This document shows, piece by piece, positions 32,022 to 50,538 of a DNA stretch of 64,000 bases. The first letter of the stretch is position 1, and each line of letters opens with the position of its first letter. This stretch comes from Zhihengliuella flava. Lineage in GTDB: Bacteria > Actinomycetota > Actinomycetes > Actinomycetales > Micrococcaceae. The notes under the pieces are model-generated. The model did no database searches. It was given only the letters and a program-made list of their open reading frames with translations, and was not told the origin of the DNA. The DNA is taken from NCBI RefSeq assembly GCF_015751895.1, contig NZ_JADOTZ010000001.1:248001-312000 (forward strand), given 5' to 3'. The position numbers and the translations under genes were made by a program.

Positions 32022-32174
32022 GAATCTTCGGCTCCTGACTGGACTGAATGAACCACCAATCTACCGCGTTCCGCACATGTCCCGGCGAACGCGCGCCGAA
32101 CTCCAGGCGGTCCACGTCATGGTCATAGGCCACCCACATCGTCCTCACCCCTCTCACCCCCTGGTCGTCATGAC

Positions 32175-32260
32175 ATGAGAACTTGATGAGAACCTCGAGA
32201 CCTCAGCCCGATGAATTCACCTCCGAGCCACTATTTCCTCGATGAGAGTTTGATGAGACC
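32175..32260 (+). promoter_or_regulatory. Two pairs of 11-nt-period direct repeats before the UDP-glucose dehydrogenase gene
   Basis: First pair: ATGAGAAC at 32175-32182 and 32186-32193, with TTG between. Second pair: ATGAGAGT at 32242-32249 and ATGAGACC at 32253-32260, again with TTG between. Units in a pair are 11 nt apart and the pairs are 67 nt apart, about six turns, so all lie on one DNA face. On the other strand the units read GTTCTCAT-like. Tandem 11-nt repeats are typical of OmpR/PhoB-family response-regulator sites. Regulator identity is inferred only. Confidence 0.45.
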
Positions 32261-32280
32261 GCCGAAATAACGGATTGACG

Positions 32281-33675
32281 ATGAGTACCATGACGAACAT
32301 GGAATTACGCATCACTGTGATCGGCACTGGATATCTCGGAGCGACCCATGCCGCGTGCATGGCAGAGCTCGGTTTTGAGGTCCTCGGGGTCGACGTGGAC
32401 CCGGCCAAAATCAACTCGCTGGCGGCCGGCATCTTACCGTTCCATGAGCCCGGGTTGCCTGAACTGTTGCGTAAGCATCTCGCGACTGGCCGGCTTCGAT
32501 TCACCACGGATTACGCGGAGGCCGCGGCCTTCGGCGACGTGCATTTCATCGGCGTCGGGACGCCGCAAAGGGCGGGGCAACACTCGGCGGATCTGACCTA
32601 CGTTGACGCAGCTGTCACCTCATTGGCCCAGCATCTCGACCGCGACGCCCTGATTGTGGGCAAATCGACGGTTCCCGTCGGGACAGCTCGTCGGCTGCGC
32701 GGCATGATTGACGACGTTCGCGCCCAGCATGGACGGACGGGCGGTCGCATCGCGCTCGCCTGGAACCCCGAGTTTCTGCGCGAGGGTCGTGCCGTTGAAG
32801 ATACCCTCACACCGGACCGACTGGTCGTCGGCACGGGAACCGCGGCCACTGCGTCCCCAGATGACCAGGTTGCCGACGAGGCACTGTGGGCGCGGGAGAT
32901 TCTCCGGCGCGTTTATGCCACACCACTGGCCACCGGTACGCCACTGATCGAAACCGATTTTGAGACGGCCGAACTCGTGAAGGTGGCTGCCAACGCGTTC
33001 CTCGCCACCAAGATCTCGTTCATCAATGCGTTCAGTGAAATGACCGAACTCGTCGGCGGGGACATCCGAATCCTGGCCGACGCGCTGGGGCATGACGCCC
33101 GTATCGGTCGTCAATTCCTCAATGCCGGCGTGGGATTCGGTGGCGGTTGCCTCCCCAAGGACATCCGCGGCCTCCAAGCCCGCGCCAACGAGGTAGGCGC
33201 CGCCTCCGCCATGCGGTTCTTGACCGAGATCGATGACATTAACCTGCGCCGGCGGGATCGAGTGGTGCACCTGGCCACGCACATGGTGGAGGAGCTCAAA
33301 GGGGCGCGCATTGCGGTCCTTGGTGTGGCGTTCAAACCTGAGTCCGACGACGTGCGCGACTCCCCTGCACTCGACGTCGCCGCCCGTTTGTACAACGCGG
33401 GTGCTGACGTGAGCGTCTACGATCCACAAGGTAACGCGAATGCCGCCCGCCGGTTCCCCCGGTTGCATTACGTTGACAGTTTGGCCGAGGCCACTGCGGG
33501 CGCCGATTTGACCATTTTGGCGACCGAATGGAGCGAGTTCAAGGCACTCCGTCCGTCCGACTTGTCTCCCCGGGTGCGCAAGCACCAGTTGATTGATGCC
33601 CGAAACGTCCTCGATCCCACCGAGTGGGCCGAGGCTGGGTGGCGCTTCGAGGCCCTCGGCCGCAAAGCCCACTAG
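32281..33675 (+). CDS. UDP-glucose 6-dehydrogenase
   Basis: Oxidises UDP-glucose to UDP-glucuronate with two NAD+. The product is about 464 aa, normal for the family. Seen: Rossmann VIGTGYLGATHAACMAELGF near the N terminus, SVxxG-type central region, active-site Cys in GFGGGCLPKDIRG, and C-terminal VAFKPESDDVRDSPAL. The start is unsure: ATG at 32281, 32290 or 32299, or TTG at 32275; none has a clear Shine-Dalgarno. It is the first gene of the glycan locus. With galU at 53-54 kb it would supply UDP-GlcA for a uronic-acid polymer. A related UDP-ManNAc dehydrogenase role is less likely. Confidence 0.88.
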   Translation: MSTMTNMELRITVIGTGYLGATHAACMAELGFEVLGVDVDPAKINSLAAGILPFHEPGLPELLRKHLATGRLRFTTDYAEAAAFGDVHFIGVGTPQRAGQHSADLTYVDAAVTSLAQHLDRDALIVGKSTVPVGTARRLRGMIDDVRAQHGRTGGRIALAWNPEFLREGRAVEDTLTPDRLVVGTGTAATASPDDQVADEALWAREILRRVYATPLATGTPLIETDFETAELVKVAANAFLATKISFINAFSEMTELVGGDIRILADALGHDARIGRQFLNAGVGFGGGCLPKDIRGLQARANEVGAASAMRFLTEIDDINLRRRDRVVHLATHMVEELKGARIAVLGVAFKPESDDVRDSPALDVAARLYNAGADVSVYDPQGNANAARRFPRLHYVDSLAEATAGADLTILATEWSEFKALRPSDLSPRVRKHQLIDARNVLDPTEWAEAGWRFEALGRKAH

Positions 33676-33683
33676 AAGCTGGG

Positions 33684-33734: not shown

Positions 33735-33745
33735 AGTCCCGGGGC

Positions 33746-34654
33746 CTAATCGCGGACAGGATCGATTTTGATGCGCTGGTTCAGCTTCTCTTGGCGGCGT
33801 CGGTAGATATTCGCGTGCTCAGTGGACGACTTGGCGAGGAGGCGCATGTACGTCCGATACTTCGGCAACACGATCTCTGGGTCCGCATCCATGATCAGCT
33901 CGCCCTTGTCGATCCACAGCACACGGGAACACATATCTTTGATGGTGCCGATGCTATGGCTGACCAAGAACACGCATCCAGCTTGCTCTCGAAGCTGATC
34001 GAGGCGCGCCTTAGTTCGGTCCTTGACCGCGGCGTCGCCAGTATTCAAAGCCTCATCAATGACGAGGATCTCGGGCTCAACGGCGGCAGCAATGGCAAAT
34101 CGGAGGCGCGAGGCCATACCGGAAGAATAGGTTCCCATCGGCAGTTCAATTTCATCGCGGAGATCAGCCACCTCCACAATCGAGTCAAACCGTTCACGAA
34201 TTTCCCCAGGCTTCATGCCCATCGCCAAACACCCCAGCCAGATGTTCTGAGAACCCGACAGCGACGGCTGGAGGGCCGCGCTCACCCCCAACATGATGGG
34301 CGTGCTTGTGGCTGAGACCGTCCCCCGGGTGGGACGGAGCTGGCCGCTGATGAGCTTGCTGAGGGTGGACTTTCCCGAGCCGTTTCGGCCCACGATGCCC
34401 ACCGACTCACCGTGTTCGACCACGAGGGAGAGCGGCTTGAGCGCCTTGACCTGCACGGTCGGTTTACTCTTCACGACGCTGTCGAACGCCCTTTTGAGGC
34501 GCGACTGCTTTTGTCGTTCTTCCTGCGACTCCGTCGAGACGTAGAACGTCATGGCCACGTTATTCAAGACCACAGCGGGGTCACCGACATAGCTCGGGCG
34601 CTGCGGCAAGGCCAGATCTGCCTCTTCGGTGGTGGTATCGCCGTTGCTGCTCAC
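33746..34654 (-). CDS. Polysaccharide/teichoic-acid ABC exporter, ATPase subunit (Wzt/TagH-like)
   Basis: Nucleotide-binding subunit of a glycan exporter. From the GTG at 34654 it is 302 aa: Walker A GRNGSGKST at 89-97, the degenerate signature YSSGMASRL typical of Wzt/TagH, and Walker B ILVIDEAL. There is no C-terminal carbohydrate-binding domain, so chain-length recognition of the Wzt-O9a kind is absent; this resembles TagH without its extension. The GTG shares a base with the permease stop (TAGTG), and GGAAGG lies 9 nt upstream. It acts with the permease encoded just before it. Confidence 0.9.
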   Translation of the reverse strand: MSSNGDTTTEEADLALPQRPSYVGDPAVVLNNVAMTFYVSTESQEERQKQSRLKRAFDSVVKSKPTVQVKALKPLSLVVEHGESVGIVGRNGSGKSTLSKLISGQLRPTRGTVSATSTPIMLGVSAALQPSLSGSQNIWLGCLAMGMKPGEIRERFDSIVEVADLRDEIELPMGTYSSGMASRLRFAIAAAVEPEILVIDEALNTGDAAVKDRTKARLDQLREQAGCVFLVSHSIGTIKDMCSRVLWIDKGELIMDADPEIVLPKYRTYMRLLAKSSTEHANIYRRRQEKLNQRIKIDPVRD

Positions 34655-35589
34655 TATGCCGTGCCTTCCATCCCGTACTTTTCTTCTCCCTGCCAGAAGT
34701 AAATGATGCCTACCACTGTCAGGATGACTGCCCAACCGCCGAGGATGGCCCACGAGTCCCATCCGGGCAGCGACTCGTACAGGATCACGTCGCGAGTCAT
34801 TTCCAATACTTGAAAGAGCGGATTGAAGGAAATGATCGTCAACACCGTGGGATTGTCCGTAAACCGCTCAACGGAGTAGAAGACACCTGAGCTGTAGAGC
34901 CAAATCCGCGTCGCAAACGGCAAGAGGTTCCCCACGTCCCGCACGGAGGCGACGGCGCGTGCCAAGACAAGCGATAGGCCCAGATTGAAAAGCACCTGCA
35001 AAGCCAAGATTGGAATCAACAGGAGCCAGCGCCACGTGATGGTCTCGTCGTCGGGAAGGATCACCACCATGACAATCATCGCGATCGCAGCGGGCAGGAA
35101 TGCCATAGATTCGCGCAAGGTCACGGCGATCGGCAGTGAAATGCGGGGGAACCGGAACGACGTGATCAGGGACCGGCCCTGCTGGATCGCTCGGGCGCCA
35201 GCGTTAATCGAGCGGCTGGTAAAGCTGAACATGAACACGCCGATGATGAGAAATCCCAGGAAATTCTCAACACCATCACGGGTTCCGAGCAGCAAGCCAA
35301 AGACCAGGAAGTAGGTCAAGCCGTTGAGGACCGGGGTCAACACCAGCCAGATGTTGCCCAGCGCAGAGCCCTCGTTTCGGGTTTCCACGCGTGCCCTTGA
35401 GTCGTAGAAAATGAAGTGACGGTACTGCCACACCTCGCGGAGGTAGGTCCCCAGTCCCTTGCGCTGGCCGACCCGTTGCAGCCGATTCATGTTGACCGTG
35501 ACGGTGGCCTTGTCCGGCCGATCGACCCGGCCCGGCTGCACCGGCTGACTCTCGGCGTCCGACGCCTGCGCTGTTGTGCGGCTGTCCAC
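34654..35589 (-). CDS. Polysaccharide/teichoic-acid ABC exporter, permease subunit (Wzm/TagG-like)
   Basis: Membrane subunit, about 311 aa, with six hydrophobic segments (TYFLVFGLLLGT, FLGFLIIGVFMFSF, FLPAAIAMIVMVVIL, LLLIPILALQVLF and others) and the ABC2-type motif YRHFIFYDSRAR before TM1. GTG at 35589 has AGGAG 4 nt before it; ATG at 35610 has none. It is co-transcribed with the ATPase gene. Together they would flip a lipid-linked glycan outward across the membrane. Confidence 0.88.
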   Translation of the reverse strand: MDSRTTAQASDAESQPVQPGRVDRPDKATVTVNMNRLQRVGQRKGLGTYLREVWQYRHFIFYDSRARVETRNEGSALGNIWLVLTPVLNGLTYFLVFGLLLGTRDGVENFLGFLIIGVFMFSFTSRSINAGARAIQQGRSLITSFRFPRISLPIAVTLRESMAFLPAAIAMIVMVVILPDDETITWRWLLLIPILALQVLFNLGLSLVLARAVASVRDVGNLLPFATRIWLYSSGVFYSVERFTDNPTVLTIISFNPLFQVLEMTRDVILYESLPGWDSWAILGGWAVILTVVGIIYFWQGEEKYGMEGTA

Positions 35590-35641
35590 AGAACTCCTAC
35601 CTCTTCCCATGACGCGCCGTTGCAGACGCGGCGTGGGTAAC

Positions 35642-35647
35642 AGTCTA
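35642..35647 (-). promoter_or_regulatory. Possible -10 box for the exporter operon
   Basis: TAGACT on the minus strand, about 55 bp upstream of the permease start. No -35 was recognised, so this is weak. Confidence 0.2.
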
Positions 35648-35754: not shown

Positions 35755-35809
35755 CCCGGGCAACCGCCGGACTGTGCCGCCCCAACGAAGAGGAAACCGC
35801 CACGGACTC

Positions 35810-36088
35810 ATGAACGCTTCCAGCACCCCGAGCGACGTCGAGACGGCCCTGAACGAACTGCGCGCCGAGCTTCGCGAGTCCTACCGCAGCGAACGTGCGG
35901 CGCAGGCTCGCGTCGTCGAACTCGAGGAAGAACTTCGTGAACTGCGCGTGCACGGACTCACGCGGTCTCTGGCTCGCGCGTCGGGCCTCATCAAACTGCG
36001 TGACGTTGTCAAAGAATCCGTGGTACTCCGCCGCTCACGCACTCTCGCTTCAACGCTGAAAAAGCGCGCCCAGGAGCGACTGAAGTGA
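35810..36088 (+). CDS. Small coiled-coil protein preceding a glycosyltransferase
   Basis: 92-aa hypothetical protein with heptad-like ALNELRAELRESYRSERAAQARVVELEEELRELRV (about residues 10-45; only parts are quoted by others as coiled coil) and a basic C-terminal half. No family recognised. It overlaps the next gene by GTGA, so translation is coupled. That suggests a partner or scaffold for the glycosyltransferase, like small chain-length coiled-coil proteins; this is inference. Start ATG at 35810 has no close ribosome binding site; a GTG at 35774 is possible. Confidence 0.65.
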   Translation: MNASSTPSDVETALNELRAELRESYRSERAAQARVVELEEELRELRVHGLTRSLARASGLIKLRDVVKESVVLRRSRTLASTLKKRAQERLK

Positions 36089-38694
36089 CGGATCCGAACC
36101 CCAGTGAGCGACCATTTGACTCCTACGAGGCGCTCCGCAGACTTGAGCTGATCGACGCCCGCCTACCTCAGCTCGATGCCGCAGCGGCAGGCCTTCAAGA
36201 ACTGGCCTCTTCACCGGAAGCGCGCGCGCTGCGCGGCGTGTCGGAACGGGGTGCGCTCGAGGCCGCTGAGCGGGCGATAGCGGGCCTGCCCCCTCGTGAG
36301 TTGGGTCGCGCCCACGCCCCCTTAACGACGCGAATCGCCATCATCGCCGACCCTTTCCTCGTCACGAGCTTTGAGGCACTGGCGGACTTCTTACCCGTAA
36401 CGCCCGAGAATTATGCCGAGACGGCGACACAGGCAGATGTTCTTCTCGTCGCGTCGACGTGGCGCGGCCACGACGGCGCCTGTTGGCGAGGCGTGGGCAC
36501 CCCCGGATCCCGTGCCCGTCGTCACCTGCTCGACGTCGTCATCCCCGCCTTCCGCCGGCGAGGCGTGCCGGTGGTCTTTTACTCCAAGGAAGACCCGCCC
36601 AACTATTCCTGGTTCGTTGAGGTCGCCGCCGCAGCCGATGCCGTTGTCACCACGGCGGAGGAAGTCGTTCCCCACTACCGCGCCGACTGTCCGGATGTGC
36701 AGTCTGTCGACGTCGTCCCCTTCGGGGTCAACCCCTTGCACCATTCGCCGATTGGATCCCGCCTCCGTCCCGTCAGCTCCGTGTTCTTCGCAGGTTCGTG
36801 GCATCAGGACAAGTATCCGGAGCGCGCCACCTGGGGCAGGGCCCTGCTGGAGGGCGTCCGTCGTAGCCACCGCGATTTGCTGGTCTTCGACCGCAATTCC
36901 GAACTGCGCAGTCTTTCCTACATGTTCCCGGGCCCCGTCCTGCCCTTCGTACATAATGCAGTTCCACACGCCTTCTTAATGGATCTGCAGCGGGTGAGCG
37001 ATTTTGCACTCAACCTCAATTCGGTCATCGGCAGCAAAACGATGTACGCCAACCGGGCCATCGAGCTTCAAGCCTCCGGCACGGTGGTGATCAGCAACTA
37101 TAACCTGGGGCTGAATTCGCGCTTTCCGCACGTGCATCTGGCCAACTCGGCAGCCGACGTCGCCGGATTCATTGACTCCTTGACGTTTGACCAGCAGCGC
37201 ACCATTCAGGTGCGCGGCATCCGCGATGCCTTCGGCTCAAATCTCTCGCTGTACGGGCTCGACCGGATTCTCTCCACCGTCGGTCTCTCCACACCAGATC
37301 GCACCTTGCGCGCTATCGCCGTTGCTGATCACGCTGACGATCGACTCCGTAGTCAGTTCGCCAAACAATCCATCGGCCCGGTTGAGGTCGTCGCCCCGGA
37401 GCACCTCGAGCGCGCCGCGAACGCCGCACAGGCCAACGTCGTCCTCGACGTGACATCGCACCGGGACTACGGCGTCAACTACGCTCTGGATCACCTCAAC
37501 GCTTATAAGTACGCGTCAACTCAGCAGGCCGGCAAGTTGGACGGCCCGGCGGAAGCAGCCGATGCTCGCGCCCACCAGTACGTGGACGGCACGCCCGCCG
37601 CTGGCTTGGGATCCCGTTGGGTCTCTGCCGACTCGGCCGACACTCACGAGTGCAGCCAGAGTGACTACTACGGAATTGACCACTTCGGTTCGTGGCCACG
37701 CGGCGTGCGTACGGTGACGGTTACCGCGGCGCATCACGCAGAGCGCCCTCTCCTGTCCGTCGTCGTTCCGATCTACAACAATGGTCAGCACCTGAAGTAC
37801 AAGTGCATCCAGTCCTTGCGCCGCAGTTCCCTCTTCGAGCAGATGGAGATCATCCTCGTTGACGACGGGTCGACCGATGGCGCCACCCCGGCGACGGTCA
37901 AAGAACTGGCTGCGCAACTGCCCCGGGCCGTGCACTATCGGTTCCGCGATGGTGGCAGTGGCTCCGCCTCGCGCCCGCGCAACAAAGGCCTGGAACTGGC
38001 CACGGGCGAGTTCGTCACCTACCTCGATCCTGACAATGAGGCGACGGAGGACGGGTTTGCCCACTTAGTGGAACTCCTCCGCGCGCACCCCGAGGCTGAG
38101 ATCGCGGCCGGCAATATGAGCCGCTGGAGCGACTCGTACCGGGTCTCCAACAACGTCGCCTATCTTCGCCAAGCCACCGGCGGCGCCGGCGAGTTCGTCG
38201 CCGTGCCTCAAGCCACACTGGCCAAGCTTAAATTCCGCCCCGTGAGCATTCAGGCTCTGGTGGCCCGCACGGATTGGCTGCGCGACCTCCACTTGGTCCA
38301 ACCCGTGGGGGCGGCCGGCCAGGACAGCTATTTTTTCCAACAGGTGCTGTTCCACACGGAGAAAATGGCGCTCAGTGATCGCGTCATTCACACGTACTAC
38401 GCGGCGGTCGAGGATTCTACGGTCAATACCGTTGGCGCACGCTTTTTCGAGAAGTACTTGCTCTTGGAGATTCCCCGTGTTGCGTGGCTCCATGAGGTCG
38501 GCCTCTTTGACGCCTATGCGGAGACGCGCCTCGAGCAGTACGTGCGCGACTGGTATTTGAACAAGCTCGACGCCGTCAAGCCAGCAGAGCGGAGCGACGC
38601 CGTCGCCACGTTGGCGAAGATTCTGGCCCTCTACGCGGACCATCAATGGCGTGAGCCGCGCATTCGCGCCTTTTTGGCAGAACACGGCGTGTGA
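36085..38694 (+). CDS. Two-domain glycosyltransferase (CgeB-like GT plus GT2)
   Basis: 869-aa protein with two catalytic-type domains. The N-terminal half (to about residue 400) looks like a CgeB/GT-B domain: FAGSWHQDKYPERA, then ANRAIELQASGTVVIS near 321. The C-terminal half from about residue 555 is a GT-A family 2 domain: LSVVVPIYNNG, ILVDDGSTDG, SRPRNKGLELATGEF and the metal site LDPDNE. It is the second gene of a two-gene operon with the coiled-coil protein. It probably adds two sugars in turn or polymerises a disaccharide repeat. No membrane segment or signal peptide is visible, so it acts on the cytoplasmic side. The start is a GTG. Confidence 0.85.
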   Translation: MTDPNPSERPFDSYEALRRLELIDARLPQLDAAAAGLQELASSPEARALRGVSERGALEAAERAIAGLPPRELGRAHAPLTTRIAIIADPFLVTSFEALADFLPVTPENYAETATQADVLLVASTWRGHDGACWRGVGTPGSRARRHLLDVVIPAFRRRGVPVVFYSKEDPPNYSWFVEVAAAADAVVTTAEEVVPHYRADCPDVQSVDVVPFGVNPLHHSPIGSRLRPVSSVFFAGSWHQDKYPERATWGRALLEGVRRSHRDLLVFDRNSELRSLSYMFPGPVLPFVHNAVPHAFLMDLQRVSDFALNLNSVIGSKTMYANRAIELQASGTVVISNYNLGLNSRFPHVHLANSAADVAGFIDSLTFDQQRTIQVRGIRDAFGSNLSLYGLDRILSTVGLSTPDRTLRAIAVADHADDRLRSQFAKQSIGPVEVVAPEHLERAANAAQANVVLDVTSHRDYGVNYALDHLNAYKYASTQQAGKLDGPAEAADARAHQYVDGTPAAGLGSRWVSADSADTHECSQSDYYGIDHFGSWPRGVRTVTVTAAHHAERPLLSVVVPIYNNGQHLKYKCIQSLRRSSLFEQMEIILVDDGSTDGATPATVKELAAQLPRAVHYRFRDGGSGSASRPRNKGLELATGEFVTYLDPDNEATEDGFAHLVELLRAHPEAEIAAGNMSRWSDSYRVSNNVAYLRQATGGAGEFVAVPQATLAKLKFRPVSIQALVARTDWLRDLHLVQPVGAAGQDSYFFQQVLFHTEKMALSDRVIHTYYAAVEDSTVNTVGARFFEKYLLLEIPRVAWLHEVGLFDAYAETRLEQYVRDWYLNKLDAVKPAERSDAVATLAKILALYADHQWREPRIRAFLAEHGV

Positions 38695-38699: not shown

Positions 38700-38762
38700 G
38701 GTGGCCGCCGAGCGCGTGCCCCGGACCTTGCGGTTGTCCTGGGCACGCGCTCGGCGGCCACC
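38700..38762. terminator. Bidirectional terminator between convergent glycan genes
   Basis: Perfect 22-bp stem (38700-38721 with 38741-38762) and 19-nt loop between the glycosyltransferase (plus) and pyruvyltransferase (minus) genes. The loop contains GGACCTTG, as in the terminator at 33684. Confidence 0.75.
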
Positions 38763-38780: not shown

Positions 38781-39926
38781 CTATTTTCCGGAGTCGAGAC
38801 GCTGACGTAGCTTCTTCAGGCGCCACCCCAACGCGGTCCCGAGCCTCGCTTGCGCGCTGGAAGCGGTGGAGGCCGCTGTGTGGGCCGTGCGGGTGGCCAA
38901 CCGCTGAGCGTAGCCGGCCGGATCGTTCTCGCGCTGTATTTGATCGACCAAGCGCCGCAGTTCGGCATCCGAACGTCGATGCAGTTCATCGATGAGCAGG
39001 TCCGGCACGCGCAAGCGCGTCAGCGGCAGCTTATCCGCCACGTCTTCGTCCTCAAGATGAGACAGCAGCGGGCTGCGATCCAAGAGGCGGTACAGGTTCT
39101 GGCTCTTCGACGTGGGGGAAAGCACGATGGTCGGCACACCGTAGCTGGCAGCGACCACGGTTCCGTGGAACTTCATCGACGCGAGGGCGTCGAGGCCGCC
39201 GATCGCGGAGGAAATCTCATCGATCGACTCACTGTGGATAATTTCATCGACGTCAAAGGGCAAGGTCCGAGCGACGTCGACGTCGGCTTGGCCAGTTTGT
39301 CCGGTGCCGAGGACGATGGCCACCACGGAATACCCCTCCTTCCGGGCGGCCGCGGCCAGCGTGGCCACATTGCTGTAGTCATCGGCCCCGCTGCGCCGGT
39401 ACCTGACCACCACACCGAGTGTCTTTTGCGGATAGCTGCGCGGTTCGGGCATGTCCATCGAAAACACCAAGTCCGGCGAAACGCGGACTGGGACCCGAGG
39501 CCTCAGGCGAGTGCGGATCCACTCCGCGCTTTCCTCGTCCCGGGCACTAATGGATTTCACGTTGGGGTGCCGGAAGAACTCGCGCATCTTCTTCACCACA
39601 GTCTTGTTTTCATGCGTGATCCAGGTGGGAACCCCGACCCCGGCAATGTAAACCGGCTTGGCGAGCCAGGCGGGATCCCAGTACAGCTGGGAGATCTTTG
39701 ATGGAATCACCAAGTCGCCGCCACCGATGATGAACGCATCATATTTTTCGGCGACCTGTTCAGCCGGCTCATCGAAGTACGGCACGGCTAATTTGGTATT
39801 GATGGGCTCGGCGTCAAACAATCCACCGAGCCGGTCCTTCCAGAGGTTGAGGAACAGCTCATCGCCGTAATTCCCCCACCCGAAGAATCCAATCAGGCCA
39901 ATTTTCTTACGCGTTCTCATGTACAT
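38781..39926 (-). CDS. Polysaccharide pyruvyl transferase
   Basis: Transfers pyruvate from phosphoenolpyruvate as a ketal onto a glycan sugar, as CsaB does for secondary cell-wall polymers. The 381-aa protein has the family N terminus FFGWGNYGDELFLNLW, the glycine motif IIGGGDLV and the conserved ASMKFHGTVVAASYGVPTIVLSP near the C terminus. It is free-standing, unlike the fused copy at 43.3 kb. Start ATG at 39926 or 39920. It overlaps the upstream glycosyltransferase slightly, so the three genes 38.8-43.1 kb form an operon. Confidence 0.88.
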   Translation of the reverse strand: MYMRTRKKIGLIGFFGWGNYGDELFLNLWKDRLGGLFDAEPINTKLAVPYFDEPAEQVAEKYDAFIIGGGDLVIPSKISQLYWDPAWLAKPVYIAGVGVPTWITHENKTVVKKMREFFRHPNVKSISARDEESAEWIRTRLRPRVPVRVSPDLVFSMDMPEPRSYPQKTLGVVVRYRRSGADDYSNVATLAAAARKEGYSVVAIVLGTGQTGQADVDVARTLPFDVDEIIHSESIDEISSAIGGLDALASMKFHGTVVAASYGVPTIVLSPTSKSQNLYRLLDRSPLLSHLEDEDVADKLPLTRLRVPDLLIDELHRRSDAELRRLVDQIQRENDPAGYAQRLATRTAHTAASTASSAQARLGTALGWRLKKLRQRLDSGK

Positions 39927-41097: not shown

Positions 41098-43064
41098 GGT
41101 TGCTGCTCCCTCTGCGGCTGGTCGGAATTCGCGTTCTCCGCCGTGGCAGCGCGCCGGTGCGCTGTCGCGTGGGCAAAAGCCTGCCGATAGCGTTCGCCAT
41201 TGTGCTTCCACTGACGGCTCGCTTCGACCCACGCGCGTCCGGCATCGGCCAGCGCGGCCCGAGCCTGTTCGTCGTGCAGAAGTTCGGTCACCGTCGACAC
41301 GAGGCTGGACACGTCCTCGGCGGCGAACGCTCGGCCACGGTGTGGTGGATCAACGACTTCCACCAACGCGGGTAGGTCGGAGACGACGACGGGGCGCATC
41401 ATCGCCATGGCTTCGAAGGGCTTGAGGGGCGTGACATAAATCGCCGCGCGCTCCCGGATCCGCGGCACGACGAAGACGTCGATCAACGCGTAGTGACCGG
41501 CAATGCTGTGGTGGTCCACGGGGCCCGTAAAAATCACCCGGTCACTGACGCCACGTTCGGCAGCGAGGGCCTTCAGTTCCTCCACCCGCGTGCCGCCACC
41601 CACCAAGACGCACTGCGCCTGCTGGCCGTTCTCCTTCATCCGGGCCGCGGCCTCGATGAGCAGTTCCTGCCCTTCACGGCGGTGGTCCATGTTCGAGACG
41701 TAACCAAACGTGGGCATCGTCAACCCGTACTCGGCACGCAATGCGGCGACATCGGCCGCGGCTGCCGGCTGAAACCGCGCCAAGTCGACAGCGTTGGGCA
41801 CGAGCTCAATTTTCTCGGCGTCGATCCCGCGGGAGATCAACTCGTCCCGCATGGCGTGCCCCAGCGTCAGTATGCGGTCGGCGCGGCGCATACACATTTC
41901 CTCGACGGCGCAACGCAGCCAGTAGGTTTCACTCTCAACGTCGACCCCTGTTTCGCTGGTCCACGTGGCCTCGAAAAAGGACCGCACCTCGTACACCAAC
42001 GGCACGTCAAACTTTTCTTGGAGTGCGAGTCCAACGAGGGCAGTTTCATACCCGCGTCGCCCGGAACTGACGTGAATCACGGCCGGCCGGATGTCCCGGA
42101 CCTTGTCCGCGGCGAGCCAGGCGAAGTCCTGCAACCACTGATTGACCGGCAGGTCGGTGTGGTGCGGACCCAAGTCCAACCGATGGTGTTCGATTCCGTC
42201 GATCACCTCGAGAGGCTCGAACGACTCCCCCACAACGTCGCGCGGAAAACCTGGTTCGGTGACAATGACCGGCTCAAGGCCAGCCTGCGCCTCCGCCACG
42301 AAATTATTGTGGCTGCGCGAGGTGAATCCGTTGGAGTGATACGGGCGGCTCTCCTTAACCAGATGCAGGATGGTCTCAGCGGAGCGCGGTTCAATGTGCT
42401 CCGATTCACCCGGCAGCCGCGGAATCCAGCCGGACAACTCCATCAGTCGGCCTTCCAGGATGCGGTAGTCAGACTCTTTGAAGCGGCGATCGGTCGCGAG
42501 GAGCTTGGCCGCGAGGCGGACGTTCTCGGTAATCGATCCATCAGCGGCCGCGAGTTTTCTAGCCGCGTGAAGGAACTTGGCGTCCTGTCCGTTGGTGGGC
42601 TCCAAGGCGGATGCCCAGAGCCTCCCTGCTCGATACCGCCGCGAGATCCGCGCCTGCTCCACCGGATGATGGGCGGTATATTCGCTGGTGGCGGGATCCG
42701 TATTCATGGCCGCAAAGCGACGCCGAAGCACCACCGGGCGGGCCAGAGTTTCCGCAACGACGGCCTTGACCAAGGCCCCTGCGAACGCGGGAAGAGCCCC
42801 ACGATTCTTCTGGACGTTTCGCCATGGCTCGCCGACCCGGCGCTTGACGCGCTGGGCAAGGTCCTCCGCCCGCAGCCGAGGTCCACCTTTCAAGTAGCCG
42901 TTGCTGTCCCGCAGTGCGCGAGCGAGGCTATTGCGTTCGGCCAAGAGGCGCGTGTGCTCTGCGTGGATCGCGGCCAGTTCTTCACGCGCCGTTGCGAGGA
43001 GTTGCTCGGCGTCGTCGTTCCCCGGCCACGCGGGCCGTGGGTGAGGCGATCCTGTCTCATGCAC
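41094..43064 (-). CDS. Glycosyltransferase with N-terminal extension (GT4)
   Basis: 656-aa protein. About 200 N-terminal residues are helical and charged (EELAAIHAEHTRLLAERNSL coiled-coil-like); the GT4 domain follows from about 220 (LHLVKESRPYHSNGFTSRSH; VPNAVDLARFQP; VVPRIRERAAIYVTPLKPFEAMAM). The GTG start at 43064 has AGGA about 10 nt upstream. It is the first gene of the operon with a second GT and the pyruvyltransferase. Specificity unknown. Confidence 0.85.
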   Translation of the reverse strand: MHETGSPHPRPAWPGNDDAEQLLATAREELAAIHAEHTRLLAERNSLARALRDSNGYLKGGPRLRAEDLAQRVKRRVGEPWRNVQKNRGALPAFAGALVKAVVAETLARPVVLRRRFAAMNTDPATSEYTAHHPVEQARISRRYRAGRLWASALEPTNGQDAKFLHAARKLAAADGSITENVRLAAKLLATDRRFKESDYRILEGRLMELSGWIPRLPGESEHIEPRSAETILHLVKESRPYHSNGFTSRSHNNFVAEAQAGLEPVIVTEPGFPRDVVGESFEPLEVIDGIEHHRLDLGPHHTDLPVNQWLQDFAWLAADKVRDIRPAVIHVSSGRRGYETALVGLALQEKFDVPLVYEVRSFFEATWTSETGVDVESETYWLRCAVEEMCMRRADRILTLGHAMRDELISRGIDAEKIELVPNAVDLARFQPAAAADVAALRAEYGLTMPTFGYVSNMDHRREGQELLIEAAARMKENGQQAQCVLVGGGTRVEELKALAAERGVSDRVIFTGPVDHHSIAGHYALIDVFVVPRIRERAAIYVTPLKPFEAMAMMRPVVVSDLPALVEVVDPPHRGRAFAAEDVSSLVSTVTELLHDEQARAALADAGRAWVEASRQWKHNGERYRQAFAHATAHRRAATAENANSDQPQREQQP

Positions 43065-43192: not shown

Positions 43193-43299
43193 CATGGGCG
43201 AACACGTCGGAGAGAGACGATCCCCGCGCGGGCGCGTCTACCGACCACGGGGTGCTTGCACGACGGCGAGGACCCAAAAAGTTTGACCCGAGGAGTCAC

Positions 43300-46155
43300 G
43301 TGAACACCACCATCGAGGGCCTGCGGCGCGAGCTGGCTGACAAGATCTTCGACCAAGGCTTCCACTGGAGGGTGCTGTTTGTAGGCACCTCCGTGAACGG
43401 CACCACGGACATTGTCTCTTCACTCTCGCGGTCACTACGCAACTTGGGCCATCACGTCCTGGACGTGGATACTCGCCAGCACCGAGGGATGTTGCACAAT
43501 CCTCACAAGGTCTCGGGCGGAATGGGCCCGATTTACGTCAAGTACGACCGGTTGGAGCCCTTCCTGGAGAACTTTGCTCCGCAGGTGGTGATTTTCTGCG
43601 CGGGCGGGCTCACGATGACCGAAGAAGAAGCGCAGCGCGTCAAGGACCGCGGTATCGCTCTGGTGGGCATTACCTTGAGCGATCCGGACGTCTTCCCGAC
43701 GGTGCGCGACCACAACCACGTGTTCGACATTCACACGACCAACGCGGAGATCGCGCTGGAGATGTACCGCGAAGCCGGAGTCGAAAACACCGTCTACTTC
43801 CCCTTTGGCATTGACCGCGGATTCGTCACCCAGCAGATCCCGTACGACCCGCAGTTTGAGGCGGATGTTATTTGCCTTGGGCACGCCAACAACCGGCCAG
43901 ACCGCAATGAGGTCATGACCTCCCTGGCCCAACAATTTGACGTGCGCACCTACGGGCGAGGCTGGGAAATCCCGGACTCCATCACCGTCTCCGGTGAGCA
44001 AACCGTCCAAGCCCTCAAGGCTGGCCGCATCCACGTGAACTTTCCGCTCACCCGGGCTGGCTTCATCAACATTAAATGCGGTGTCTTCGAATCCGCCGGG
44101 CAAGGGGCCTTGGTCGCCACCGGCCGCTTCGATGAGATGGCCAAGTTCTTCACGTATGACGAGGACATCGTCGGCTACGAATCCAAGGAAGAGCTCGCCG
44201 AGAAGATTCAGTGGCTACTTGATCATCCCGACGAGTATGACCGCATTGCCGAAAACGGCTTCCGCCGCGTGATCACCGAGCACTTGTATGAGCACCGTTG
44301 GATGGAGCTGTTTGCCCGCCTCGCAGATCTGACGGAAGAGAATTCCGGCTGGCTCTCCGACGAGCGTCGTCACGCCTTGCGGGAGACGCTCTCCGTCAGT
44401 CACGGCCGGGCTAAGAAGGTCATCGTGTCCGGGTTCTACGGTGCCCGCAACCTCGGCGACGAGATGATTCTTGGCTCGATCACTCAGGCTCTGACGCAGC
44501 ACGACGACTCCGTGCAGGTCGTCGTCGCCGCCGAGAACCCGGCGAATGTTGAAGCCAGCCACGGTCTGCAGGCCTTCCAACGCACCAATCACGTCGCCGC
44601 AGCGCACGAGGTCCAAACGGCCTCTGCCGTGATCGTGGGCGGCGGCGGCCTGTGGCATGACTACACGTATGAAGCGGGCGGTGGCCTCCTGTCCCTGTTC
44701 AACGGCGGCAAAATCTCGATGGCTGGGTTCGGCATCCTGCCGATGATGGGCCGCGTGCTGGATCGGCCCTACCATGTGGTCGGTCTTGGGGTCGGCCCGT
44801 TGGACGACTACGGGGCCCGCCAGACGGTGAAGTTCCTCGCGGAGCACACCGAGAGCCTCTATGTCCGGGACCCGGAATCAGCCCGAGTCCTCCAGTCCCT
44901 GCCGGTGGCTCAGGATCGCATTACGGTCGGCCCCGACGTCGTCTACGGTGTCGATCTGCCCCAGCCCACCGAAGCAGACCTACCGGAGCAGGTGCGGGAA
45001 CTTTCGGCTGCCGGCCGTCGCATCATTGCCCTCAATATGCGCCCTTGGAAGAACGCCGACATGGACGCCGTGAGCGCTCGCGTGGCCGCAGCCCTGCGCT
45101 CGCTGGCCGACCAGGAGCCAATCGCCGTCGTCGGAGTGCCCATGCAGGCCGGAAAGTCCTTTGACGGGCGCGCCATCGAATTGGTGACCGCACAATTGGG
45201 CGCCGACGTACCCGTGATCCCGTTGACCGCACCGCTGACGACGGCGCAGCTCGCCGCCGTCTACCGGTCCGCGTCGGCACTCGTGGCGATGCGCTTGCAT
45301 GCATGTCTGGTAGCGCACCGGCTCGGGCTGCCCACCGTTGGCTTGTGCTACGACCCTAAGGTGCGTCGGCACTTTGAGGAAGTTGGCCGCCCAGAATTCG
45401 GACTGCCCCTCGAGGCAACCGCAGAGGAGCTCGCAGGGCAGTTGCTCGCGGCCGTTGGCGCGGACCTGCCTGAAGCGACGCATGCAGCCGTCCGGGAATT
45501 GGAAGCGGGGGCACGCCGAGCACTGTCCGTAGCCGCCACCTCCATCGCGGACAGTCGCCGGGTGGACGCTGTTTACACCGTGCCCGAGGAGAGTGCGGTG
45601 GCCGGCCTGCCGGCGAAGGAAGAACTGGGTGAGCGGCTCACTGATGTCCGTGGTGGGCGATTCCAGGCCATGCAGGCGTCCTCGGAGCGGGTCGAGCTGC
45701 CCGTTTCGGGCCCAGGCGCCCCGGCCGTCGGCAAGCACGGCATCTCGGTGGCACTGCCCACCACGGCGCCCCAGCGCGGCATGTCGGCGCAACTCACGGG
45801 TCAGCTACGCCGCACCATCTCAGCTCCGGCCGAGCTGTGCTTCCGCTTGACCAACGACTACGCCAACCCCAAGGCCACGGGACGGCTGTTCTACGAGCTG
45901 ACCGTCGGTGACCACGTGATCCGCCGTGACCTGGCGGAGGGCTCGGATCCGGTGATTGTGCGGTACCTGACCCCGGCGTCCGCCGATGTTCCCATCACAC
46001 TTCGGGTCTTTGCGGAGAAGAAGCCCTTTAGTTCGAGTTCCTGGCCGCGGGTTACCCGCGTACATCTGTCCTTCATCGGGTCCCTCCCCCTCGAGGATCA
46101 GCTGGGCGCGCCAGTGTTGATGTCCACCGCCGGGGACGTGCGCACGCAAGCCTGA
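43300..46155 (+). CDS. Fused CgeB-like glycosyltransferase and polysaccharide pyruvyltransferase
   Basis: 951-aa protein with three parts. Residues 1-345 are a CgeB/GT-B-type glycosyltransferase (VLFVGTSVNGTTDIV, FESAGQGALVATGRFDEM). From about 372 is a pyruvyltransferase (SGFYGARNLGDEMILGSI, VIVGGGGLWHDYTY, VAMRLHACLVAHRLGLPT near 663). From about 800 a beta-rich region (CFRLTNDYANPKATGRLFYEL, VPITLRVFAEKK) looks like a carbohydrate-binding module, though no family is recognised. GTG at 43300 has GAGGAG 4 nt upstream. It probably adds a sugar and pyruvylates it in one polypeptide. It is one of two pyruvyltransferases in the locus. Confidence 0.88.
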   Translation: MNTTIEGLRRELADKIFDQGFHWRVLFVGTSVNGTTDIVSSLSRSLRNLGHHVLDVDTRQHRGMLHNPHKVSGGMGPIYVKYDRLEPFLENFAPQVVIFCAGGLTMTEEEAQRVKDRGIALVGITLSDPDVFPTVRDHNHVFDIHTTNAEIALEMYREAGVENTVYFPFGIDRGFVTQQIPYDPQFEADVICLGHANNRPDRNEVMTSLAQQFDVRTYGRGWEIPDSITVSGEQTVQALKAGRIHVNFPLTRAGFINIKCGVFESAGQGALVATGRFDEMAKFFTYDEDIVGYESKEELAEKIQWLLDHPDEYDRIAENGFRRVITEHLYEHRWMELFARLADLTEENSGWLSDERRHALRETLSVSHGRAKKVIVSGFYGARNLGDEMILGSITQALTQHDDSVQVVVAAENPANVEASHGLQAFQRTNHVAAAHEVQTASAVIVGGGGLWHDYTYEAGGGLLSLFNGGKISMAGFGILPMMGRVLDRPYHVVGLGVGPLDDYGARQTVKFLAEHTESLYVRDPESARVLQSLPVAQDRITVGPDVVYGVDLPQPTEADLPEQVRELSAAGRRIIALNMRPWKNADMDAVSARVAAALRSLADQEPIAVVGVPMQAGKSFDGRAIELVTAQLGADVPVIPLTAPLTTAQLAAVYRSASALVAMRLHACLVAHRLGLPTVGLCYDPKVRRHFEEVGRPEFGLPLEATAEELAGQLLAAVGADLPEATHAAVRELEAGARRALSVAATSIADSRRVDAVYTVPEESAVAGLPAKEELGERLTDVRGGRFQAMQASSERVELPVSGPGAPAVGKHGISVALPTTAPQRGMSAQLTGQLRRTISAPAELCFRLTNDYANPKATGRLFYELTVGDHVIRRDLAEGSDPVIVRYLTPASADVPITLRVFAEKKPFSSSSWPRVTRVHLSFIGSLPLEDQLGAPVLMSTAGDVRTQA

Positions 46156-46175: not shown

Positions 46176-46216
46176 ACGCACGGGGTGCCCAGCTGATCGC
46201 TGGGCACCCCGTGCGT
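46176..46216. terminator. Terminator after the fusion gene
   Basis: Perfect 18-bp stem (46176-46193 with 46199-46216) and 5-nt loop TGATC, then CTTTT on the plus strand. It is a strong terminator for the plus-strand gene and also serves the convergent GT4 gene. Confidence 0.85.
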
Positions 46217-46260: not shown

Positions 46261-48057
46261 TCAGACCGTGGAGCGAGTGCCGCCGAGTCGTTCGTAGACT
46301 GCCGTGTATTTGGCGGCGTTGGCCTCCCACGTCCTGTCCGCCAACGCCCACGCGCGGCCCGCCTGGCCGAATCGCTCGCGCAGGGCGGCGTCGTCGAAAA
46401 AGGTTCCGATCTTTGCGGCGAGGTCGGCGGGGTCCTCCGGCGCTGCGAGGTACCCGGTAACCGAGTCCTCCACCAGTTCAGCCAACGCCGGCAGGTTGGA
46501 AGCCACCACGGGGCGGCGCGAGGCCGAGGCCTCGACGAGCTTCAACGGCGTGACCTGACGCGTGACCTCCAAATCCTTGCGGGGCACGGAGAAAACATCG
46601 AGCGCCTGATGATAGGTGCTCGCCTGCGGGCGCGGGATGCGGCCCGGGAAGATGACCCGGTCCCCCAGTCCGAGTTGTGCGACTCGATGCTTCAGGCCCG
46701 GCAGGGCGGCGCCGTCGCCCGCGATCAGGAGACGAATATCGCCACGCTCGGCGGCCAACAGCGCGAACGCTTCCACCAACGTGTCGAGCCCCTCGTAGCC
46801 CACGATGCTGGAGACGGTGCCCACGTAGAGGCCCTGGGCCGGTAGACCGAGCTCTTGCCGTGCCGCCGTCGTCCCGCCCGGTTCTGCGAGAAACGACTCG
46901 CCGACGGCATTGGGACAGATCTCAAGTCGCTCGGCGGAGACCCCCTGCCCAATCAATTCGGTCCGCATGGCCTCGCCTAACGTGACGACGGCGTCGGCGT
47001 GCCGAGCCACCTCCGCTTCACGCTCCTTGAAGAGCCGGTAACGTTCCGAGTCCTTCGCCGCGGGTCCGCGGGTGGACGCCCATGTATCAGCCAGCTGACC
47101 CCGCGCCTCGTAGACCCACCGAAGACCGTACGCCTCGGCGACGGCCCGTACAACCAGTCCGTTGACGAAGTGCGTGGTCGTATGCAGGATCGCGGGCCGA
47201 AACTCCTCGACCATCCGTGCGAGTTCCTCGGCCTGTTGCTGCAGACGGGCATCGAATCCGGCGGCCAACCGCGACGGGAGCATGCGGCGGTACTCGATGC
47301 CGTCCACGACGTCGACGTCGGCCGCCCACGGCTTACCCACCTGCACCGGGTATCCTAGTCGAGTCGCAGCAGCGACCTCCCACCCGGCCTCGCGCAGCGC
47401 CACGAGGATCGAATGGGTGCGCTGCGCGTACCCGCTACCCGTGTGAGGCAACGAGTTGGTGGCCATGTGCAGCACGCGGTGAGCCACCGGAGCGTAGGAT
47501 TCCGGCGCTTCAACGCGTGGCCTCCTGCCGGAAAACGTCGCCAGCTCGGACGCGAGCCGGCCGTGCAGCGTGGCCGCCGCCCGGTCGCGCTGAGGGCCGC
47601 TGGCATAGGGGGCGAGCAGAGCCACAGCTTCGCTCATCTGCCCGCGATGCCAAGCCAGACGCGCCGCACTGGTGGCCACCCGTGCGCTGGACGGCAAGCC
47701 GTCGAGTAGACGCTCCGCGAGGTCGATCTCCGCCATGGCTGTCGCAACGTCGGCCAGCTTGCGGGCGCGCTCGGGGGACAATTGATGCGCCCTCGCGCGT
47801 TCGATGCGTTCAGCCGCCGTTTGCTCGTGCCCCCGGACCACGTGGGCTATGGCCCCGACCACCGAGGCGTCAGCGCGCCCGAGACGAGCGGCCAGTGCCG
47901 CCGCGACGCTAACGGGCGCCGAGGGTAATCGGCGGGCGACCTGCAGGGCCAACACCACGGGATCGTCGCCAAGATGTTCGCGCACCGTGTTGGCTGTCAA
48001 GCATAGGTTGGCCGCGAGCCGTCCCGGCGTCAGCTTCCCGGCGGAATCGGCGCTCAT
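46261..48057 (-). CDS. Glycosyltransferase with helical N-terminal region (GT4)
   Basis: 598-aa protein. The first about 180 residues are helical and Ala/Arg/Leu-rich (repeat-like VARRLPSAPVSVAAALAARL), perhaps TPR-like. The GT4 domain starts near 190 (HMATNSLPHTGSGYAQRTHS) and has LYVGTVSSIVGYEGLDTLVEA, LLIAGDGAALPGL, FPGRIPR and PLKLVEASASRRPVVASNLP. It overlaps the next upstream gene by ATGA. Specificity unknown. Confidence 0.85.
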   Translation of the reverse strand: MSADSAGKLTPGRLAANLCLTANTVREHLGDDPVVLALQVARRLPSAPVSVAAALAARLGRADASVVGAIAHVVRGHEQTAAERIERARAHQLSPERARKLADVATAMAEIDLAERLLDGLPSSARVATSAARLAWHRGQMSEAVALLAPYASGPQRDRAAATLHGRLASELATFSGRRPRVEAPESYAPVAHRVLHMATNSLPHTGSGYAQRTHSILVALREAGWEVAAATRLGYPVQVGKPWAADVDVVDGIEYRRMLPSRLAAGFDARLQQQAEELARMVEEFRPAILHTTTHFVNGLVVRAVAEAYGLRWVYEARGQLADTWASTRGPAAKDSERYRLFKEREAEVARHADAVVTLGEAMRTELIGQGVSAERLEICPNAVGESFLAEPGGTTAARQELGLPAQGLYVGTVSSIVGYEGLDTLVEAFALLAAERGDIRLLIAGDGAALPGLKHRVAQLGLGDRVIFPGRIPRPQASTYHQALDVFSVPRKDLEVTRQVTPLKLVEASASRRPVVASNLPALAELVEDSVTGYLAAPEDPADLAAKIGTFFDDAALRERFGQAGRAWALADRTWEANAAKYTAVYERLGGTRSTV

Positions 48058-49292
48058 GCGTGGTTCCTTTGCGTCTGTAGATCGGCCAAGAGATCGGCGA
48101 ACTGGTCGCCCAGCCGCGCCAGATTGCGGTGTTCCGCGACCCAGCGTCGGCCCGTCGTGCCGACGTCGAGCCTCGCGGGGTCACGGCGAAGGTCTTGCCA
48201 CAGCTCGGCCATCGCCTCGGCGTCGTGTGCTACGACGTCGGCCCCGCCGGCGGCCCGGAGCACCTCGGATGCCTCGCCGCGCACCGCGGCCGTGATGTGG
48301 CGTGAGACCGCCAAGAGCTCGAACGTTTTCGAGGGGATGGTGCGTTCAAAGCTCGGCCAGTCATCCCGCAGGGACACGACGGCAGTGTCCGCCCAGTCGT
48401 ACTGGGCCAACGTCTCCTCGCCGTGCGTGGCCTCGAGGAAGTCGACGTCGGCACCGGCGGCCCGCGCCCGCTCGATGAGCTCCTCCTTCATGGTGCCGGT
48501 ACCGACCATGCGCAGGCGAACGGAGTCACCGGCCAGCTGCGCGGCGTCAATGAGGACGTCCAGCCCCTGGCTTTCGCCGTGGTTTCCCAGGTACAGCACA
48601 TGGAGGGGCTCGCCAGCAGAAGACGGCTTCCCCGCCGAGGCCAGCGCGGGCGCCGTCGCCGCCTGGCGGGGCAGGCGCGAAGCGGTGAGACCGTTGGGCA
48701 CCACTTCGACGCGTTGGCAACCGCGTTGGCGCAACAGCTCCGCAAATCCTTCGGTGACGGAGACGACGGCGGCCGCTCTCCGTTGGACGAAGGTCACCAC
48801 AGCTTCCATCACCGACGGGCGCCGAGACGTGACGATCGCGGCATCGCGTGCCAAGTCCGGCCAGGCATCGCGCATATCCACCACAAGGGGTCTACGCCAG
48901 AGGATGGACAGGAGGTAGCCAGCTGCGGTGTTGGGCAACGCCGGGACCGTGACGACGACGACGTCAGGGCGGCCACTGCTCATGGACGCCACGAGCGCCC
49001 GCGGGACCGTGCTCAGTGAGCTGAGCACGTTGGACGCCAACTTACTGAGCCGAGATTCGGTGTGTCGCAGCAGAGGGACGCGGTGCACGCGCTCACCGTG
49101 CCGGCCGTCCTCCGCGCGGAAGAAGGTACCGCCGCTGCCGGCGTCCGCCGGAGAACGGTCCGGATGCGGTGCGGGGGCGACGACGTCGACATCCCACCCG
49201 CGGTGGATCAAGCGGGCGACGAAGGCGCTCCACCGGCGTTGCGGAGCCGTGGCCTCCGGGTCATATGAGTGTGTGATGAGCAGAACTTTCAC
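48054..49292 (-). CDS. Glycosyltransferase, GT4 (WbuB-like)
   Basis: 412-aa protein. N-terminal domain starts VLLITHSYDPEATAPQRRW, followed by WRRPLVVDMRDAWPDLARDAAI. The C-terminal domain has VLYLGNHGESQGLDVLIDAAQ and TIPSKTFELLAVSRHITAAV. This resembles WbuB/aminosugar GT4 enzymes. GTG start. It lies 6 bp after the LCP gene and is followed by the overlapping GT4 gene, so the three form an operon read toward the left. Confidence 0.87.
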   Translation of the reverse strand: MKVLLITHSYDPEATAPQRRWSAFVARLIHRGWDVDVVAPAPHPDRSPADAGSGGTFFRAEDGRHGERVHRVPLLRHTESRLSKLASNVLSSLSTVPRALVASMSSGRPDVVVVTVPALPNTAAGYLLSILWRRPLVVDMRDAWPDLARDAAIVTSRRPSVMEAVVTFVQRRAAAVVSVTEGFAELLRQRGCQRVEVVPNGLTASRLPRQAATAPALASAGKPSSAGEPLHVLYLGNHGESQGLDVLIDAAQLAGDSVRLRMVGTGTMKEELIERARAAGADVDFLEATHGEETLAQYDWADTAVVSLRDDWPSFERTIPSKTFELLAVSRHITAAVRGEASEVLRAAGGADVVAHDAEAMAELWQDLRRDPARLDVGTTGRRWVAEHRNLARLGDQFADLLADLQTQRNHA

Positions 49293-49298
49293 GAAAGA

Positions 49299-50420
49299 CT
49301 ACTCTGCCACGCTGGTGCTGCCTTGGTCCTCTGACGCGTCGGGGCTAGGGGAAATTCCGCCGAGCTCATCGGTGGTAATCGGGTTGCCGTAAGCGTTAGT
49401 CCCGGTCTCCTCGGCGAGGAACGTGGCGAGGTCGTCATTCTCGAGCGCTTGACTGAGGCGCTCCATCGCTTCTTCATCGCGCAGAATGACTTGAGCCGCG
49501 CCCACCTGCGCGGGGCCGCCGGTCGGGATGGTGAAGAAGTGCACGTCGTCGGTGCGGATATCCTTCAGCGTCGCGGCGAGGCCCACCATCGTGGAGGAAT
49601 CGAGGGTGTCATCCACCGTGAGGTAGCCGGAGAATTGATCAACGACGTCGTACAACTTCATCGGGTTGGAGAGCGTTTCGGCCGTGAGGAAGTCCCGCAT
49701 CACGGCCTTGATGAAGAGCTGCTGGTTCTGAACCCGCTGGAAGTCACCGTCGAGGAAGGCCTTCCGTTCGCGGACAAAACGCAGCGCATCGTTGCCTTCA
49801 AGGTGGATCATGCCCTCCTCGAAGCAGCTCGGCGTGGCGTGACCGGTGCAGAACTGGTTGGGGTTGTCGAGATCCACCCCGCCGAGTGCCTGCGTCAGGG
49901 AGCTGAAGCCCTCGAAGTCGATGGAGACCACGTTGTCGATCGGCGCGCCGATCAACTCTTCGACGGTTTCCACGACCAAGGGGTATCCGCCGAGGTTGAG
50001 CGCCGCATTGACCTTGCGCTCACCGTGGCCGGGGATCTCCACCCACAGGTCCCGGACCATGGACATGACGTACACGTTCTCACGGTCTTCGGGGATATGG
50101 ACGATCATCATGGTGTCCGAGCGCTGCCCGTCCTCGCCCTTGACCGAGGCGACGTCGTTGCCCTCACCACGCGAATCTGAACCCAGCAGAAGAATATTGC
50201 GCGGGCCGGTGATCTCCTTCACCGGCCGAGTGCTCAGCCCGGCGTCCACCTGGGTGGTCTTGGCATCGAAGGTGTTGAGGAGGCTCAGCACGTAGGCTCC
50301 GGCACCCAGCACCACAATGAGCACGACGGCGAGGCCACTGAAGAGCGCGATCCGCCCGGTGTGCCGCTTCGGCTTGGCGCGATGCCGCGGCGTATACGGG
50401 TCGGACACGGATCGTGACAC
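49299..50420 (-). CDS. LCP (LytR-CpsA-Psr) family glycopolymer ligase
   Basis: LCP enzymes transfer lipid-linked wall glycopolymers to peptidoglycan outside the membrane. The 373-aa protein has a basic N terminus, one membrane helix (IALFSGLAVVLIVVLGAGAYVL, about 24-45) and an extracellular catalytic domain with LLLGSDSRGEG, RSDTMMIVHI, SMVRDLWVEIPG and RFVRERKAFLDGDFQRVQNQ. Cys in FCTGHATPSCFEEG may form a disulfide. GTG start at 50420, GGAG about 9 nt upstream. It is the first gene of the LCP-GT-GT operon and the border of the glycan locus. Confidence 0.93.
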   Translation of the reverse strand: MSRSVSDPYTPRHRAKPKRHTGRIALFSGLAVVLIVVLGAGAYVLSLLNTFDAKTTQVDAGLSTRPVKEITGPRNILLLGSDSRGEGNDVASVKGEDGQRSDTMMIVHIPEDRENVYVMSMVRDLWVEIPGHGERKVNAALNLGGYPLVVETVEELIGAPIDNVVSIDFEGFSSLTQALGGVDLDNPNQFCTGHATPSCFEEGMIHLEGNDALRFVRERKAFLDGDFQRVQNQQLFIKAVMRDFLTAETLSNPMKLYDVVDQFSGYLTVDDTLDSSTMVGLAATLKDIRTDDVHFFTIPTGGPAQVGAAQVILRDEEAMERLSQALENDDLATFLAEETGTNAYGNPITTDELGGISPSPDASEDQGSTSVAE

Positions 50421-50538
50421 TCTTGGGTCTCCTCGTCGTCAGGTGAATTGAAGCCAGGTGGTCCTGCACGACTGAACCTCTCCTGGTTCCCCCTGCCAGC
50501 AGCCACCGCTGTATGCCAACCCCTCTACTTTAGTGGGT

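Follow-up and report, generated by a model that had tools for sequence, protein, structure and literature searches.

The teichuronic acid of Micrococcus luteus, a member of the Micrococcaceae, consists of glucose and N-acetylmannosaminuronic acid (ManNAcA), is begun on N-acetylglucosamine (GlcNAc) and is bound to peptidoglycan (PMC3005890). In Streptomyces, teichuronic-acid-like polymers specified by the utr loci are the receptors of umbrella toxins (PMC13274773). A wall polymer of Promicromonospora VKM Ac-1028, known from chemistry, contains glucuronate with a 2,3-pyruvate ketal (PMC6801904). In Bacillus anthracis and Paenibacillus, a pyruvylated wall polymer is the ligand of SLH proteins. 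Here we describe a locus in the complete 2.9-Mb genome of Zhihengliuella flava, another member of the Micrococcaceae, that probably directs the synthesis of a teichuronic-acid-type wall glycopolymer and combines a conserved frame with an exchangeable centre. It lies in a window of 64,000 nucleotides, to which all locus coordinates refer, and occupies positions 32022-50538, exactly the gap from the start of smc to the stop of mutM, as originally predicted. We found no paper on a polymer locus at this site.

Pfam and NCBIfam profiles assigned the 12 genes of the gap to synthesis, export and attachment of a surface polymer. The original prediction counted 11, but its own list also sums to 12, and the content it named was recovered in full: ugd, Wzm/Wzt, glycosyltransferases (GTs; five genes and one fused GT domain), two pyruvyltransferases, a coiled-coil protein and a LytR-CpsA-Psr (LCP) ligase. 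This predicted gene content gives good support to the export-and-attach path that the prediction proposed for a pyruvylated, uronic-acid-containing wall polymer. The genes are arranged in six units on alternating strands: lcp-gt412-gt598 (minus), gtpyv (plus), gt656-x441-pyv1 (minus), the coiled-coil gene with gt2 (plus), wzm-wzt (minus) and ugd (plus).

The frame is lcp-gt412-gt598 beside mutM and wzm-wzt near smc, all on the minus strand. The LCP ligase gene (49299..50420) matches PF03816 with an E value of 2e-38 and scores above the TIGR00350 cut-off. It is accompanied by gt412 (48054..49292; PF13579), encoding a WcaI-like GT4 glycosyltransferase, and gt598 (46261..48057; PF00534), encoding a GT4 enzyme that shares 54-67% identity with its counterparts in four congeners. 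The exporter comprises the ABC-2 membrane protein Wzm (34654..35610; PF01061), which reached 64 bits on the galactan Wzm model and thus stayed under its cut-off, and the TagH/Wzt-like ATPase Wzt (33746..34654), which has an intact Walker A motif (GRNGSGKS) and is devoid of a C-terminal sugar-binding extension. The best NCBIfam match of Wzt is the teichoic-acid exporter TagH.

Conservation of the frame was followed in 197 genomes of the family (G000, this genome; G001-G004, its four congeners; other G numbers, other family genomes; g numbers, genera). Both smc and mutM are found on one contig in 122 of them, always in the same orientation, and the contents of 64 smc-mutM intervals were read. 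The two genes had been expected to be neighbours or nearly so, as in many Actinobacteria. This holds for 24 genomes with a spacing of 13-179 bp, but the distance is about 1-1.4 kb in 16 others and 1.9-97 kb in the remaining 82; the site is variable across the family, in line with its description as a hotspot. All five genomes of the genus, this one included, carry a polymer locus of 17-27 kb between smc and mutM, in which lcp, gt412 and gt598 adjoin mutM and wzm-wzt lies towards smc. The frame also occupies the smc-mutM gap in G020, G030, G102 and G118 and is next to mutM in G018, G153 and G007; in all, it adjoins mutM in no fewer than five genera besides this one. Among the 105 family genomes with gt412, six genera have the gene at 1.25-1.9 kb from mutM, namely g1 (5/5), g4 (6/6), g15 (4/4), g17, one genome of g13 and one of g27; per-genus counts refer to the genomes listed and, for g4 and g15, to those with both genes on one contig. 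In Arthrobacter-like genera gt412 is mostly 22-83 kb away from mutM, and several of the genomes read have it beside ddl. No gt412 was found in empty-gap genera such as g7, g12 and g26 among the matches listed. In quick trees, which were used throughout, the gt412 phylogeny broadly follows that of SMC, g6 being the exception. As the position beside mutM occurs on both sides of a deep split, it is old; either it is ancestral with later moves away, or it has been reached at least twice.

The centre of the locus is exchanged between relatives. Identity to the congeners amounts to 62-75% for lcp and gt412, similar to smc (67-73%) and mutM (65-70%); it is 44-56% for wzt and wzm, and gt2 is either about 44% identical or absent. 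In this genome the centre comprises ugd, the pyruvyltransferases and gt656/x441, and the pyruvylation genes are absent from the smc-mutM gap of all four congeners. G001 and G002 combine ugd with SGNH-acyltransferases instead; the 6-dehydrogenase is TuaD-like in G000 and G001, and the G002 copy belongs to the same family. G003, G004, G030 and G118 carry WbpA/B/E/D-type sets, those of G003 and G004 being predicted to provide a diacetamido-uronic acid, while G102 and G020 encode a WecC dehydrogenase above the NCBIfam cut-off together with a WecB-type epimerase. Every polymer locus examined at smc-mutM contains one or more nucleotide-sugar 6-dehydrogenases, the kind differing between loci. Hence a charged sugar seems to be constant and its identity to vary, the predicted acid being glucuronate, ManNAcA or a diacetamido-uronic acid. 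Such a constant charge with a varying acid fits polymers of the teichuronic acid type.

The locus can be compared with the described systems. The mutM loci of G102, G020, G153, G018 and G007 possess the WecC-type dehydrogenase and WecB-type epimerase needed for the ManNAcA of the M. luteus polymer. In contrast, the locus described here has a glucose-type dehydrogenase, no epimerase and two pyruvyltransferases. Like the smc-mutM loci, the utr loci vary: they have a small core and sugar genes that can be exchanged, among them a set for a diacetamido-uronic acid (PMC13274773); G003 and G004 have similar sets. The utr polymer differs in being attached to teichoic acid, and a term search of the paper gave no mention of pyruvate (PMC13274773). 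The combination of glucuronate and pyruvate in the teichuronic-type polymer of Promicromonospora VKM Ac-1028 is the very chemistry predicted here.

UDP-glucuronate is predicted to be supplied by Ugd, a TuaD-like UDP-glucose 6-dehydrogenase (32281..33675, plus strand; PF03721/PF00984/PF03720). The protein contains the motif GVGFGGGCLPKD, its open reading frame starts with TTG at 32275, and it scores above the TIGR03026 cut-off. No priming transferase is encoded inside the smc-mutM locus, as the original prediction had stated; a WecA-type gene nevertheless exists elsewhere. Two genes of the genome exceed the PF00953 cut-off, one being mraY in the mur cluster and the other located beside atpB of the ATP synthase operon (G000:C1, about 435.8-436.9 kb).

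How the enzymes follow one another, which sugars they use and how the product is finally attached we infer as follows. The WecA-type transferase would load GlcNAc-phosphate onto the lipid carrier, whereupon gt412 and gt598 would build an inner part common to the loci. The variable GTs would then assemble a repeat containing glucuronate from Ugd, to which pyv1 and the fused enzyme would add pyruvate ketals from phosphoenolpyruvate; the tail of the fused enzyme, which resembles a carbohydrate-binding module (CBM), may hold the acceptor. Finally, Wzm-Wzt would export the finished chain and the LCP ligase would join it to peptidoglycan.

The pyruvylation genes belong to two separate cassettes. The first is gtpyv (43300..46155, plus strand; open reading frame from GTG at 43252), which encodes a CgeB-like GT (PF13524), a CsaB-like pyruvyltransferase (PF04230) and a C-terminal beta-sandwich in one protein. 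Its pyruvyltransferase domain matches the CsaB model TIGR03609 with an E value of 5e-50 and 170.5 bits, under the cut-off of 213.1 bits, and of those in the locus it resembles CsaB most. In the predicted structure (mean pLDDT, a per-residue confidence score, of 73), residues 370-754 adopt a GT-B fold with a Z score of about 25 to GT-B enzymes. The C-terminal 185 residues form a well-modelled beta-sandwich (pLDDT 88) whose matches include many CBMs; Foldseek/VIA returned generic beta-sandwich and CBM matches only, with a best Z of 7.9. The second cassette, on the minus strand, consists of gt656 (41094..43064; PF00534/PF13692), a GT4 gene with an N-terminal extension, the GT4-type gene x441 (39907..41097; PF13692) and the stand-alone pyruvyltransferase gene pyv1 (38781..39926; PF04230, E 4e-23), whose product reaches 68 bits on the CsaB model, likewise under its cut-off. 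This set travels together in G102, G132, G003 and Kocuria tytonis; G102 and G132 have it at mutM. In the tree, pyv1 is grouped with the copies from K. tytonis, Arthrobacter SW1 and G102. A sequence search of the PDB with pyv1 gave nothing useful.

Related cassettes of the congeners are found at a second site. Relatives of gtpyv in G002 and G004 are situated between leuC and thiL, a site about 50 kb from mutM in the genome studied here. In G003 the gt656/x441/pyv1 homologues adjoin leuC, and G001 has a different pyruvyltransferase there. The corresponding leuC-IclR regulator-thiL region of G000 is free of pyruvylation genes, both cassettes being in the smc-mutM gap instead. The fused enzymes of G002 and G004 cluster with that of Propioniferax, apart from the G000 copy, with moderate support and few rows. 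The tree therefore does not support a simple vertical inheritance of this enzyme in the genus, and suggests separate acquisition rather than simple relocation. The presence of a fused GT-pyruvyltransferase in Propioniferax innocua (Propionibacteriaceae), nearest to the copies of G002 and G004, suggests transfer between families.

The locus had been called inserted and lineage-specific, which would mean that the whole 18 kb was gained as one block in the smc-mutM gap. The 24 genomes with smc and mutM within 200 bp indicate that the gap can be empty, and in the other families of the order, where gt412 is mostly beside gt598 and the pairing is common, the pair sits elsewhere, mutM being unseen in the 21 flanks inspected. 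Against such a gain, the frame is present here in all five genus genomes and in several other genera, the gt412 tree broadly agrees with the SMC tree, and the identities of lcp and gt412 are similar to those of mutM and smc. Neither a common repeat of at least 11 bases at the two borders nor a tRNA or an integrase at the locus was found, and recombinase or transposase domains were absent among the proteins scanned, in agreement with the original prediction; the GC content of the locus (63.9%) equals that of the left flank (63.5%) within half a point. The composition bears no sign of recent import. Gain of the whole block is thus very improbable, and for the frame it was rejected. The original prediction had itself named the same genes in relatives across the family as a mark of ancestry, and given the frame in the congeners and in six genera, the SMC-like gt412 tree and the even GC content, this mark largely applies to the frame; it does not apply to the central cassettes, which are exchanged. 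A capsule or exopolysaccharide unbound to peptidoglycan is an unlikely product, if less so than a block gain is an unlikely origin. Wzm weakly matches KpsM, capsules often involve pyruvyltransferases and uronic acids, and LCP ligases attach capsules as well as wall polymers. Yet an LCP ligase heads the locus in 5/5 genus genomes, Wzt is nearest to TagH, no capsule-specific gene was found, and the precedent in the family is a wall-bound teichuronic acid (PMC3005890). Several points nonetheless weigh against a teichuronic-acid-type wall polymer. The structure of the polymer is predicted from genes, and glucuronate could be further converted. Ugd has TuaD as its best equivalog but scores 359 bits against a cut-off of 700, and the WecA-type protein reaches 123 bits on the WecA model, which has a cut-off of 326. 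Genes beyond the window were called with a simple in-house caller. Moreover, the genome encodes four LCP proteins and a second LCP/GT/Wzm locus, so that the assignment of ligase and exporter to each polymer has to be inferred.

Compatible with a teichuronic-acid-type wall polymer is the tentative idea, doubtful though somewhat less so than a capsule, that the pyruvylated product is the wall ligand of SLH proteins. The resemblance to the CsaB/SLH system of B. anthracis and P. alvei comprises a CsaB-like pyruvyltransferase domain, a wall polymer and SLH proteins in the genome. Here, 18 SLH matches were found at six loci, corresponding to six SLH proteins, compared with none in the four congeners; the five SLH proteins scanned have three SLH domains each, combined with one of amidase, SpoIID, VanY, 5'-nucleotidase or choice-of-anchor I. 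Across the 197 family genomes SLH and PF04230 co-occur (50/54 vs 51/143), also in within-genus shuffles (50 observed, 41.8 expected, p = 5e-5), and this co-occurrence suggests that the polymer may anchor SLH proteins, the fused enzyme being the most CsaB-like candidate of the locus. However, neither pyruvyltransferase of the locus falls within the SLH-adjacent clades of the family, so that the tree supports neither of the two as the family's SLH-linked CsaB. The fused enzyme is present in G002 and G004 and a pyv1 homologue in G003, yet all three genomes are without SLH proteins. SLH proteins are encoded neither in nor next to the locus, the nearest genes being about 77-90 kb away, and two further PF04230 hits exist in the genome. 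Unlike in the CsaB/SLH system, the CsaB-like domain is part of a fusion with a GT and a CBM-like domain and remains under the CsaB cut-off, the pyruvyltransferases are not beside SLH genes, export is by Wzm-Wzt and the sugar is likely not ManNAc. It is improbable, though conceivable, that the polymer made with the fused enzyme is an SLH wall anchor whose cassettes come and go at smc-mutM and leuC-thiL, switching the surface proteins displayed.

In the family, pyruvyltransferase genes of two distinct kinds are found next to genes for SLH proteins. One kind is a pair of a GT2 and a CsaB-like gene, and the other is a small, separate type whose sequence starts at about LISWAGYPNFGDEL. In this genome, two unrelated proteins from distant sites, a choice-of-anchor I protein (L119:1897-4044) and a 5'-nucleotidase (L120:226-2445), share an identical C-terminal SLH triplet, which suggests that the anchor was copied recently. 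The second LCP/GT4/Wzm/Wzt-like locus is located beside ddl (G000:C1, about 334.9-344.4 kb) and encodes a 1311-amino-acid multi-GT. Its Wzt-like protein is devoid of the Walker A lysine (GNRQDGVD), an absence common to G000, G001, G002 and G004, suggesting a genus-conserved exporter ATPase apparently without ATP binding.

The remaining features are the borders of the locus, two further genes and two strong intergenic inverted repeats. The left border is smc (28386..32021, minus strand; PF02463/PF06470) and the right border mutM (50539..51486, minus strand; PF01149/PF06831). On the plus strand, a small coiled-coil protein of 104 amino acids (35774..36088), with weak coiled-coil matches only in Pfam, overlaps the start of gt2 (36085..38694). 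The latter encodes a bifunctional GT with a GT2 domain (PF00535, residues 558-671, E 3.6e-20) and a weakly CgeB-like N-terminal half (PF13524, residues 290-368, E 0.0027). Between the convergent gt2 and pyv1, an inverted repeat with 27-nt arms of 96% complementarity (38700..38762) is probably a terminator or a cassette border. A hairpin of 18 pairs with a T-rich tail (46176..46216) separates the convergent gtpyv and gt598. Elsewhere in the family, the olefin-synthesis cluster oleA-oleBC-oleD is found between smc and mutM in about 39 of the 64 intervals read, and G030 combines the ole set with the polymer frame in a single gap. G009 and G117, placed in different genera, have a common smc-mutM insert of about 45 kb that lacks polymer genes and encodes proteins of the same lengths; it may be a shared mobile element or reflect an assembly or labelling oddity.

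In summary, teichuronic-acid-type wall polymers of the Micrococcaceae, a family in which the chemistry of the M. luteus polymer has been studied for decades, probably have their genes in the smc-mutM gap. The family-wide pattern is one of fixed attachment and export genes and a swapped charged sugar. If the link to SLH proteins is true, the rule of pyruvate-SLH anchoring would extend to a new polymer type. With a utr-type polymer acting as umbrella toxin receptor in Streptomyces, the locus may help to decide who can attack whom.

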